Assembly (NCBI GenBank): GCA_963921195.1
Contig: OY992540.1
Span: 197,339,328-197,403,327, forward strand
Reading direction: 5' to 3'
Origin: Pegoplata infirma
Lineage: Eukaryota; Arthropoda; Insecta; Diptera; Anthomyiidae
Length of the DNA: 64,000 nucleotides
The translations under genes were made by a program, and so were the position numbers. The stretch's first letter is position 1. The number at the start of each line of letters is the position of its first letter. The notes beneath the pieces were generated by a model that worked only from the letters and a program-made list of their open reading frames with translations, had not been told where the DNA came from and did not search any database. Positions 15,695 to 26,959 of this stretch are shown here, piece after piece.

Positions 15695-15891
15695 GTGACC
15701 CATAAAATTTGGACTTTTGGCTAACAATTCCTTTTAAATTCCCTATAGTGCACTGGACCGATTTTACTGAAATTCTATACACACCAACAAAGTGTGTTTT
15801 ATACGGACATGCAAACAGACGGACAGATCGCCAGATCGAGTCAAAATCGATCAAAGTTCTTTTATATATGGACTTTGTGAGGTCCTTGACC
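15695..15891 (-). mobile_element. DINE-1 copy, first part (host of the nested hub)
   Basis: CAGACGGACAGATCGCCAGATCGAGTC, here split as CAGACGGACAGATCG and CCAGATCGAGTC, then TATATATGGACTTTGTG and GGTCCTTGACCAATA, match the minus-oriented DINE copies, e.g. 49.92-50.05 kb. The element resumes at 26918 (TTGATCAATATTTTGAGGTG). Everything between lies in one compound insertion. Confidence 0.75.
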
Positions 15892-17025
15892 AATAATAAT
15901 AATAATAATAATAATAATAATAATAATAATAATAATAATAATAATAATAATAATAATAATAATAATAATAATAATAATAATAATAATAATAATAATAATA
16001 ATAATAATAATAATAATAATAATAATAATAATAATAATAATAATAATAATAATAATAATAATAATAATAATAATAATAATAATAATAATAATAATAATAA
16101 TAATAATAATAATAATAATAATAATAATAATAATAATAATAATAATAATAATAATAATAATAATAATAATAATAATAATAATAATAATAATAATAATAAT
16201 AATAATAATAATAATAATAATAATAATAATAATAATAATAATAATAATAATAATAATAATAATAATAATAATAATAATAATAATAATAATAATAATAATA
16301 ATAATAATAATAATAATAATAATAATAATAATAATAATAATAATAATAATAATAATAATAATAATAATAATAATAATAATAATAATAATAATAATAATAA
16401 TAATAATAATAATAATAATAATAATAATAATAATAATAATAATAATAATAATAATAATAATAATAATAATAATAATAATAATAATAATAATAATAATAAT
16501 AATAATAATAATAATAATAATAATAATAATAATAATAATAATAATAATAATAATAATAATAATAATAATAATAATAATAATAATAATAATAATAATAATA
16601 ATAATAATAATAATAATAATAATAATAATAATAATAATAATAATAATAATAATAATAATAATAATAATAATAATAATAATAATAATAATAATAATAATAA
16701 TAATAATAATAATAATAATAATAATAATAATAATAATAATAATAATAATAATAATAATAATAATAATAATAATAATAATAATAATAATAATAATAATAAT
16801 AATAATAATAATAATAATAATAATAATAATAATAATAATAATAATAATAATAATAATAATAATAATAATAATAATAATAATAATAATAATAATAATAATA
16901 ATAATAATAATAATAATAATAATAATAATAATAATAATAATAATAATAATAATAATAATAATAATAATAATAATAATAATAATAATAATAATAATAATAA
17001 TAATAATAATAATAATAATAATAAT
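15892..17025 (+). repeat. (AAT)n microsatellite, ~378 perfect units
   Basis: About 1134 bp of AAT with no interruption visible. Long open frames here (poly-Asn on plus, poly-Ile on minus) are artefacts of the repeat. It borders the poly-A tail of the minus-strand LINE on its right. Confidence 0.97.
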
Positions 17026-17026
17026 A

Positions 17027-17049
17027 TTTTTTTTTTTTTTTTTTTTTTT
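17027..17049 (-). other. Poly-A tail of the minus-strand LINE
   Basis: A run of about 22 T on plus (A on the coding strand) lies between the 3' UTR and the AAT array. It marks the 3' end of the retrotransposed copy. Confidence 0.85.
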
Positions 17050-17175
17050 AATTTTCATTTATTATTCATTTTAAATTTACATTTCATGAAAATTAGTAAC
17101 CTTGCGAAGCCGTAAGGGCTTGTCTGCAGGAAATAATTTAAATATTATGTTAAATTTAAGTTTTCTTAAGAGCAT

Positions 17176-25700: not shown

Positions 25701-26437
25701 TTATTGACAAAAAAGCTTCTCATAACTGGCTTGTGGCTGGACAGCTATTTCCTGAAACTGAAGGATTTATGCTTGCGATACAGGATCAGGTAATACCGAC
25801 AAAAAATTATTTAAAATATATTGTTAAAGATCCAGCAATTGTTGATGACTATTGTCGATATGGATGCAGAACGGTAGAGTCTATACAACATATAACATCA
25901 GGATGTACAAGCATGGCAGGGTTAGAATATTTAGAACGTCACAACTCTGTTGCAAAAATACTCCACCAAGAACTTGTCATAGAATGTAATTTAAACGCAA
26001 TTGAAAAACAACCATATTACAAATATCAGCCTGATCAAATAAAAGAAAATGAAAACTACAAAATATATTGGGACCGTACTATTCTTACTGATCGTAGTGT
26101 GCAAGCAAATAGGCCTGATATAACGCTCATAGACAAGAAAAATCAAAAAGTATACCTTATAGACATTGCAATACCAAACAACAACAACCTTCAACAAAAA
26201 CATACTGAAAAGATTAACAAATATTCTCCTTTAATTGAACCTATTCAAATACAATGGAACATGAAGGATGTTAGAATAATACCGATTGTGTTATCATCAA
26301 CAGGATTAATTCCAAAGAAATTGCATGATAGTTTAAAAGAATTGAATGTGAATGAACATCTATGGAAGGAAATGCAGAAATCGGTGATAATAGCGACTAC
26401 TCGAATAGTTCGAAAATATCTTGGTAATGTACATTAA
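22766..26437 (+). CDS. R4/Dong-like LINE protein: Myb-like N-terminus, RT, restriction-like endonuclease (1223 aa)
   Basis: Around residues 80-140 there is a Trp-containing Myb/SANT-like segment (RRRMKWTTDINQEILRIYY, later VTEQRIADQLRTIR), probably DNA-binding. RT occupies about 475-800: NWKSPGPDKL (489-498), KYRPITCLP, motif A FIDYKKAFD (622-630), motif B RGIFQGDSLSP (683-693), motif C YMDD (731-734), then TYKYLGMSQ. The C-terminus carries the R2/R4-type endonuclease: a C-x3-C-x7-H-x4-C finger (Cys1030, Cys1034, His1042, Cys1047) and RPD at 1116-1118 followed by LIDIAIP (Asp1133). The ATG at 22766 is the first in this frame after the UTR. In this family one protein binds, nicks and reverse transcribes at the target. 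Plus-strand orientation agrees with its (TAA)n tail. Confidence 0.93.
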   Translation: MNANNELQMPEQGLPTGAGPGMGDNAIDQRLGRNLRPSRGIQLPQTQRLIERRQTSSYSSTAESDALGISQEPTQAALPRRRMKWTTDINQEILRIYYRVTNLETQTSGYRQKLYTEFIQKFPQLNVTEQRIADQLRTIRIKNLISEIERNMIKEQVRVSIASANDSVNIEVLPQIEEVLSPAILTVHDTEFLPQIEEPLPPEILVVNDRNDTDALGALDNQERFVRGLRDEFNRAIIEFEDTDIVCRPFIPKVKISKELENVTKHIDQYILNQQQDRIQTWEEFHLNIYCAAVTTLRSLKIRFNEVIQSNIPKGQMPPWERRLINKIEKLRCDIARIKAWTSGSRTNKIKRHIDYILRKRRFHSRHDIQNDTVLQCLDTLKQKLSVLATRLSRYRTSRAKKKDNQQFIRSEKHFYRNLKNKDQSIPNNLPSIEEITQFWSGQLSIPANYNTEAHWIVAEEERYAALPGLPADPVTVHEIKDALNNMQNWKSPGPDKLQNFWLKKFKSLHIKLAELITNSYRNPDCLPKFMTEGITYLLPKDITNSNDPSKYRPITCLPTLYKLMTTCISKRIIKYCEDNNIITEQQKGCTKFSKGCKEQLIIDATVCNQAHDKKRNLYMAFIDYKKAFDSVPHDWLLKILQMYKINDQFINFLKCTMTNWNTKMSIRTKTGNIETNTINIRRGIFQGDSLSPLWFVLALNPLSNYLNSTKLGFDIKSAGVKLFMLNHLLYMDDIKLYATNRQQLERLFDIVEEFSKDIKMEFGLEKCKTLSVIRGKLQQIPHELTNSTRIEAMAEDETYKYLGMSQSIRILQQQMKNELEIEFTKRMNKILKTNLNAKNTIKAINTFAIPVLSYSFGVISWSRTDIINLERKIRTTMTRHRKHHPKSSVERTMLPRYLGGRGLTDIQMLWQKQIDSLKNFFTLKSETSELHRAICNGDSSAIIQSNTEKQNFNVSHKYNNWLSKPLHGRHPNDVNQEIIDKKASHNWLVAGQLFPETEGFMLAIQDQVIPTKNYLKYIVKDPAIVDDYCRYGCRTVESIQHITSGCTSMAGLEYLERHNSVAKILHQELVIECNLNAIEKQPYYKYQPDQIKENENYKIYWDRTILTDRSVQANRPDITLIDKKNQKVYLIDIAIPNNNNLQQKHTEKINKYSPLIEPIQIQWNMKDVRIIPIVLSSTGLIPKKLHDSLKELNVNEHLWKEMQKSVIIATTRIVRKYLGNVH

Positions 26438-26566
26438 AATACACACTTTAAGAAAAAAATATATATATAGTTAAATAGTATATGTTAATGCTTTGGTTAA
26501 AAAATAATCTGTATTATATGTACTTTAAAATTGTAATACCATTTTTTAAATTGAGTTGAAATAAAG
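26438..26566 (+). other. 3' UTR of the R4/Dong-like LINE
   Basis: About 129 bp, AT-rich, containing an ATATATATAG run and ending ATAAAG directly before the TAA array. By analogy with R2/R4 elements it would carry the RNA structure recognised by the RT. No fold was assigned. Confidence 0.6.
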
Positions 26567-26713
26567 ATAATAATAATAATAATAATAATAATAATAATAA
26601 TAATAATAATAATAATAATAATAATAATAATAATAATAATAATAATAATAATAATAATAATAATAATAATAATAATAATAATAATAATAATAATAATAAT
26701 AATAATAATAATA
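26567..26713 (+). repeat. (TAA)n microsatellite, 49 units, joining LINE tail and SINE tail
   Basis: 147 bp of uninterrupted repeat. On plus it can be read as the 3' target of the Dong-like LINE. On minus it is the proximal part of the SINE tail. Confidence 0.95.
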
Positions 26714-26917
26714 GTTTTGATCACTTGATCAATTATTTTTATATATTCTTTTCATTAATTTACAACTCATTTTTAATAAATTCACCCTAACCGAGAACTG
26801 GTAACAATTACCGTCGTCTCGTTGTAGCGAAAAAAAACAAGGGTTCTGGCGGGAATCGAACCCACGACCCCCACTTTAAAAGGCTAGCACGCTACCAACT
26901 AGCCTACGAGCGCCCCC
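26714..26917 (-). mobile_element. tRNA-derived SINE, copy 1
   Basis: Read on minus, the 5' end GGGGGCGCTCGTAGGCTAG is tRNA-like, with box A TAGGCTAGTTGG (26895-26906) and box B GGTTCGATTCC (26852-26862). The body contains CGCTACAACGAGACGACGG and CCAGTTCTCGGTTAGG, then an AT-rich end passing into (ATT)n. A second copy at 55507-55713 has the same order, and its clean target duplication confirms the boundaries. Box A/B would support Pol III transcription. The parental tRNA is not assigned with confidence. Confidence 0.9.
26842..26917 (-). promoter_or_regulatory. Pol III internal promoter (box A and box B) in the tRNA-like SINE head
   Basis: Box A lies at 26895-26906 and box B at 26852-26862, both on the minus strand with the usual tRNA-like spacing. 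This is a SINE head, not a tRNA gene: the acceptor ends do not pair as in a functional tRNA and the sequence continues into the SINE body. Confidence 0.8.
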
Positions 26918-26959
26918 TTGATCAATATTTTGAGGTGTCATAATCTGAATGACATACAT
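26918..26959 (-). mobile_element. DINE-1 copy, continuation after the SINE
   Basis: TTGATCAATATTTTGAGGTG then TAATCTGAATGACATAC continues the DINE copy broken at 15891; compare GACCAATATTTCGATGTGTT and AAACGGAATGACAAAC at 50.03 kb. It is then interrupted by the foldback at 26962. Confidence 0.7.

Follow-up and report, generated by a model that had tools for sequence, protein, structure and literature searches.

How does a trinucleotide microsatellite come to house two unrelated retrotransposons in opposite orientations? The question is raised by a locus of the anthomyiid fly Pegoplata infirma, situated in a 64,000-nucleotide stretch of contig OY992540.1 (assembly GCA_963921195.1, positions 197,339,328 to 197,403,327), the whole of which is here called the window. 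Positions 15896-26927 are a single insertion into a DINE-like repeat, made of a short interspersed nuclear element (SINE) and its (ATT)n tail, which houses two long interspersed nuclear elements (LINEs) of opposite orientation, designated LINE-M and LINE-P. The best explanation of the whole, with a probability of about 0.85, is that a SINE inserted, its tail expanded and two array-resident LINEs then entered, LINE-M being specific for (ATT)n. The parts of the locus are as follows.

15600..15895, plus strand: left part of the DINE-like repeat, ending with the left target-site duplication TTGACCAATA; 69-76% identical to other copies by self-BLAST
15892..17025, minus strand: (AAT)378 block, outer part of the SINE (ATT)n tail; exact count, 0 interruptions
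17027..21726, minus strand: LINE-M, a full-length LINE with an apurinic/apyrimidinic-type endonuclease (APE); tail A23 at 17027-17049, 5′ end CGTCGAGTG at 21726
21727..22228, minus strand: (AAT)3-A-(AAT)164 block separating the 5′ ends of LINE-M and LINE-P; exact count
22229..26566, plus strand: LINE-P, an R4/Dong-like LINE with a restriction-like endonuclease (RLE); a second genomic copy is 99.9% identical over 3802 bp
26569..26712, minus strand: (AAT)48 block adjoining the SINE 3′ end; exact count
26714..26917, minus strand: tRNA-type SINE, owner of the tail, with a second copy in the window and candidates genome-wide
26918..26959, plus strand: right part of the DINE-like repeat, starting with TTGATCAATA and running on from the left part in five paralogues

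An earlier note on this DNA had placed a minus-strand SINE within a DINE copy, and the paralogues of the host repeat, which we take to be DINE-1, bear this out. Five DINE-like copies in the window (49933, 32623-, 31994-, 30230 and 60821-) align unbroken across the joined flanks TTGACCAATA/TTGATCAATA, reading GACCAATATTT at the junction in three cases and GACCGATATTT and TACTAATATTT in the other two; a sixth (47226) stops at the insertion point. Hence 15896-26927 is one insertion, and the array occupies the interval from the SINE 3′ end to the left duplication, the place proper to a SINE tail. The near-matching flanks themselves are less telling, since the SINE tail is (ATT)n and their last 3-4 bases agree for free; the case for insertion is carried by the DINE-like paralogues. 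None of the five holds an array: they are the empty sites that had been asked for, and the idea that the microsatellite was already present in the DINE-like repeat before the SINE arrived is rejected. The same alignment bears on whether separate loci were fused through their simple repeats during assembly. Arrays longer than 1 kb are difficult to assemble; yet the DINE-like sequence resumes on the far side of the block exactly where it broke off, and the same layout recurs at five other LINE-M loci with different flanks, which makes an artefact highly improbable.

DINE-like copies carry other insertions as well. A palindromic element (26960-28986, inverted arms of ~915 bp, 93.8% identical, TA-bounded) interrupts the DINE copy that also received the SINE, 32 bp to the right of the SINE duplication, and two 2-kb palindromic elements (47311-49370 and 60815-62847, mutually 92% identical) each abut a DINE-like copy. 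DINE copies are therefore repeated landing sites in the window.

The three AAT blocks have copy numbers of 378.3, 167.0 and 49.0 in Tandem Repeats Finder, a sum of 594 units that matches the total first proposed and agrees with the exact counts. Across 1.78 kb of array, a single 1-bp inserted base is the sole interruption, and there is no substitution. No further AAT/ATT run of at least 6 units occurs in the window (0 in the 52.8 kb outside 15801-27000), and the arrays make up 3.2% of the window once the two LINEs are excluded.

Can SINE tails reach such lengths unaided? The second SINE copy of the window (55516-55713) is 82% identical to the focal one, has a perfect 14-bp duplication ATATAAGTCATCCA and, as already reported for the copy at 55.5 kb, only 3-4 ATT units. 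A search of the 1.38-Gb assembly (813 contigs) gave 1621 first-look candidates, of which 40 were scored; these yielded 43 rows: one for the focal copy, 39 for other loci and 3 for side pieces. The tail survey covered all 39 other SINE loci (41 SINE rows; L031 was left out as a region). The first ATT run has 0-9 units, with no long array, in 39 of the 41 rows, and arrays of at least 20 units were found at two of the 39 loci (L012 and L035), so that the anticipated SINE copies with long tails do exist. The L012 SINE has 91 ATT units, no LINE and no clear duplication. At L035, the tail reads (ATT)2-AT-(ATT)425-TTT-(ATT)61, ~489 units without a LINE, and is followed by ATGGATCTTACG; the same ATGGATCTTACG precedes the SINE, and this target-site duplication encloses the array. 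SINE tails therefore grow on their own. This bears on the possibility that arrays grow because LINEs insert into them and nick them, so that a LINE arriving in a short tail would enlarge its own habitat. The longest arrays, up to (ATT)1547, are indeed found at LINE-M loci, and the arrays are near-pure, hence young or homogenised; however, L035 and L012 expanded with no LINE in place, and longer arrays would simply be struck more often. Growth driven by LINEs is accordingly judged unlikely.

The family shows the dispersed copies, simple tail and target-site duplications expected of a tRNA-derived SINE, the duplications being visible at many, not all, of the 39 loci (among them L010, L011, L020, L033, L034, L035 and L047). 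Its B box GGTTCGATTCC is perfect and its A box has one mismatch, as judged by eye against the consensus; ARAGORN calls no tRNA in it. Two tandem SINE copies linked by an A-run stand at L029 and L040. The L025 and L049 SINEs also lie, by eye, within DINE-like sequence, and at L010 a SINE with (ATT)7 occupies the same DINE position as the focal SINE. The two SINEs are 94.6% identical while their DINE flanks share only 75% (93 bp) and 82% (38 bp), pointing to independent insertion at the same site; L010 would thus be an independent ‘before’ state of the focal locus. As to timing, the majority sequence of 37 other copies differs from the focal SINE at 9 of 204 sites (4.4%) and from each of the 37 by 0-1.5%. 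Since its body is so diverged and the array has one interruption, the simplest reading suggests that the tail expanded, or was homogenised, after SINE insertion.

The two residents were described in the earlier note as a 4.7-kb minus-strand and a 4.3-kb plus-strand LINE, both with open reading frames (ORFs) and both inside the array. This holds, and all their ORFs are intact at the focal locus. LINE-M encodes two proteins.

20291..21457, minus strand: LINE-M ORF1, 388 aa; Pfam Baculo_FP_2nd (2.1e-15), Cys-rich N-terminus
17176..20160, minus strand: LINE-M ORF2, 994 aa; Exo_endo_phos (PF03372, 1.3e-8) and RVT_1 (PF00078, 2.8e-38)

Pfam thus finds in ORF2 the APE endonuclease and reverse transcriptase (RT) expected of the CR1/L2 lineage, and its GD.N, DH and ADD columns are invariant across 17 homologues. 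The N-terminal piece of ORF1 resembles PHD (0.017) and C1_1 (0.00031), both below the curated Pfam cut-off. In the parts of PMC4120745 available, a PHD-bearing ORF1 is attributed to the L2 and CR1 lineages, not to the Jockey lineage, and target specificity is described as relaxed in most APE LINEs. LINE-M shares with the CR1/L2/Jockey superfamily the APE and RT of ORF2, the poly(A) tail and perhaps the zinc-finger-like ORF1 N-terminus, and differs from it by (ATT)n residence at every close copy. The homologues of ORF2 that bear a name among the 120 matches listed come from the muscid flies Haematobia irritans and Stomoxys calcitrans.

Residence in arrays was assessed across the genome. The LINE-M 3′-end search gave 63 candidates, of which 40 were scored: six places match at a rounded 100%, the remaining 34 at no more than 79%, the best near-full match among the latter being 72%. 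All nine candidates from the 5′-end search were scored: five, at 99-100%, are the full-length copies among those six places, and four are short matches at 76-84%. The focal 3′ end is accordingly common to five other close copies (L054-L058) and the 5′ end to four. These six loci were compared with seven of the 34 distant matches (those with the highest scores, barring some near-equals). Long (ATT)n arrays stand on both sides of all six close copies; the LINE-M sense strand is the ATT strand in each, with A21-A36 before the 3′ array. At L057 (G000:C1:1447788-1453171), LINE-M is 5′-truncated at position 3160 and the array is still present at its 5′ side, where the upstream run, an uninterrupted (ATT)1547 of ~4.6 kb inside a ~6-kb array, is a very long microsatellite. 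Once the arrays are masked, no locus of the six has flanks that match those of another at E <= 1e-6, so the copies are separate insertions. The five full-length ones differ pairwise by 8-17 substitutions in ~4.67 kb, and four keep both ORFs, ORF2 being broken in L058. None of the seven distant relatives fetched has an array of at least 20 units; two of them end in 7-10 AAT units and the rest in A-rich tails.

Because arrays flank both the full-length and the 5′-truncated copies, they are a target and not merely a tail. LINE-M is thus very probably specific for long (ATT)n arrays of whatever origin, a LINE with a microsatellite specificity of its own, and its occurrence in arrays at six of six loci probably reflects the choice of its nuclease rather than selection against other sites. 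That LINE-M fell by chance into a long AT-rich stretch, with specificity confined to the Dong-like element, is hardly credible: given the share of the window that arrays occupy, one hit would be unsurprising, but each of the six close copies lies in an array, their flanks are unrelated, and 134.6 kb of comparison sequence (the window outside the block, L052, L053 and L059-L065) contains no array of at least 20 units. At the 5′ end of LINE-M (window 21699-21726, minus strand), GGACGTG stands 22-28 bases from the end, a motif that resembles the downstream promoter element of fly LINEs. In three of the five full-length copies, a target ATT directly before CGTCG yields ATTCGTCG, so that LINE-M might draw part of an initiator from the array.

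LINE-P has a single ORF.

22766..26437, plus strand: LINE-P ORF, 1223 aa; N-terminal helical domain (Myb-like, tentative), RT, CCHC, RLE

The C-terminal RLE fold and CCHC are those of R2-type elements. Three copies with a 3′ end were found, each with AAT directly after GAAATAAAGAT; clean AAT arrays stand on both sides of two (the focal copy and C1), and the third, C2, is decayed, with (AAT)4 at its 3′ end and, where it breaks off 5′, a short stretch that by eye is AAT-rich but degenerate. Insertion into (TAA)n, the habit of the R4/Dong clade, is therefore seen in LINE-P. No sequence named Dong or R4 is among the LINE-P matches listed (best 120 of 722). In the available parts of the sources, R4/Dong elements target (TAA)n in most insects and have an N-terminal SANT/Myb-like domain and no zinc finger (PMC7998251), and Dong carries TAA, as read from a primer, on the sense strand at its 5′ junction and a hepatitis delta virus (HDV)-like ribozyme at its 5′ end (PMC3774820). 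LINE-P resembles Bombyx Dong and its relatives, as far as those parts describe them, in its single ORF with RT, RLE and CCHC, its (TAA)n target and the TAA of its 5′ junction on the sense strand; it differs in that a mere three copies with a 3′ end were found, that no HDV-like ribozyme was detected and that the focal copy lies in a SINE tail. The TAA on the sense strand of published Dong predicts the orientation that LINE-P has, opposite to the SINE.

Since AAT follows GAAATAAAGAT in all three copies, LINE-P could have brought some of the right-hand block with it as a tail. Taken further, the (ATT)n arrays would all be tails of the LINEs, copied along and then expanded, with the SINE incidental. 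The earlier note had named such a picture, AAT as a LINE's own tail unrelated to SINEs, as one that would tell against it, and half of it was found: no SINE was found with the LINEs elsewhere, but arrays lie on both sides of them. The array at the 5′ side of LINE-M in six of six copies, the truncated one included, the poly(A) that LINE-M has ahead of the 3′ array and the LINE-free tail of L035 make this reading improbable.

Is the SINE, then, the general maker of such sites? The search for it at the LINE-M loci covered neither the far sides of L056 nor the downstream edge of L058. Within L054-L058 it gave only matches of 26-35 bp (E 0.026 or worse), and in the further upstream edges of L054, L057 and L058 only one 20-bp match at E 0.003; the L055 array gives way to other DNA at either end. 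Dong-like sequence recurs in these arrays. Just past (ATT)71 at L056, an ORF antisense to LINE-M is 48% identical to LINE-P residues 513-1219, with weak LINE-P-like matches, also antisense, upstream. At L055, a short antisense stretch beside (ATT)27 resembles the LINE-P 3′ end by eye and has no BLAST match. A Dong-like ORF is thus present in two of six LINE-M arrays (focal and L056), possibly three, always in the opposite orientation.

Several SINE tails with LINE insertions had been expected; the focal locus is the only one found. Of the proposal that SINE tails seed sites for microsatellite LINEs, what stands is that this array is a SINE tail, that such tails expand alone and that LINEs reside in arrays, but not that the SINE is found at LINE sites other than the focal one. 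Because the SINE was found at one of six close LINE-M sites and one of three LINE-P sites, both being the focal locus, the microsatellite itself is the apparent niche and the SINE tail one source among several. This is the first of several points that weigh against the history proposed here. Others are that just six close LINE-M copies and three LINE-P copies were found, and that the surveyed SINEs are the 40 best-scored of 1621 against the focal copy, a non-random sample. A separate subfamily for the focal SINE may explain part of its 4.4% divergence and so weaken the timing. Neither Rfam nor a narrow descriptor finds an HDV-like ribozyme at the LINE-P 5′ end, and divergent folds escape both. 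The route of tail growth is a further weak point, and continuity across the arrays rests on the assembly.

With these points in view, the history would run as follows. A tRNA-type SINE entered the DINE-like repeat at GACCAATA^TT, leaving a ~10-bp duplication and a short (ATT)n tail, as the flanks, the paralogues and the parallel insertion show. The tail later grew to hundreds of units, presumably by slippage; the near-pure array, the more diverged SINE body and the LINE-free L035 support such growth. LINE-P, with its R2-type nuclease, then inserted so that AAT reads along its sense strand. LINE-M inserted the other way round, with ATT along its sense strand, as orientation and junctions show; the array probably primed reverse transcription at the target, starting in the poly(A) of LINE-M. 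The two LINEs are unrelated, and either may have entered first.

Elsewhere in the window lies a very young gypsy-type long terminal repeat element, with 680-bp direct repeats (39089-39768 and 45286-45965) that are 100% identical and gag/pol-like ORFs between them (39784-44739, minus strand), and a tandem array (35109-37887) of a 35-bp partly palindromic unit in 79 copies with 98% matches.

Dong in (TAA)n was already known, and Waldo is a further microsatellite-targeting LINE; Kojima and Fujiwara reportedly studied such LINEs in 2004. In the available parts of the literature, DongAg, DongBg, some HERO and Togen reside in simple repeats (PMC3636483, PMC4640811), and a preference of LINEs for microsatellites has been proposed (PMC3547029). 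The likeness to these elements of other clades is residence in simple repeats; in P. infirma, two unrelated nucleases share one repeat on opposite strands. Retroposon tails are likewise described as seeding microsatellites in carnivore CAN-SINEs and human Alu (available part of PMC1634856), the likeness being a retroposon tail as microsatellite origin, with hundreds of near-pure, LINE-occupied units here versus about ten there. A literature search, with most subscription journals outside it and sources available in part, found no description of LINEs in an expanded SINE tail, nor of an (ATT)n-specific APE LINE like LINE-M.

It is tempting to go further and propose, as a conjecture that is on balance doubtful, that long (ATT)n arrays are a shared habitat of RLE (Dong-like) and APE (CR1/L2-like) LINEs on opposite strands, that the specificity of LINE-M is a recent gain, since the distant relatives examined lack array residence, and that array growth is aided by LINE nicking, with LINEs enlarging the sites that SINE tails seed. 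Stages of one path are visible in this genome, from the short SINE tail to the kilobase SINE tail and the tail with LINEs, and the two LINEs, though unrelated, have converged on one repeat. A young APE LINE family with (ATT)n at all six close copies, and with relatives that lack it, offers a clean system for understanding how a usually relaxed type of nuclease gains target specificity.

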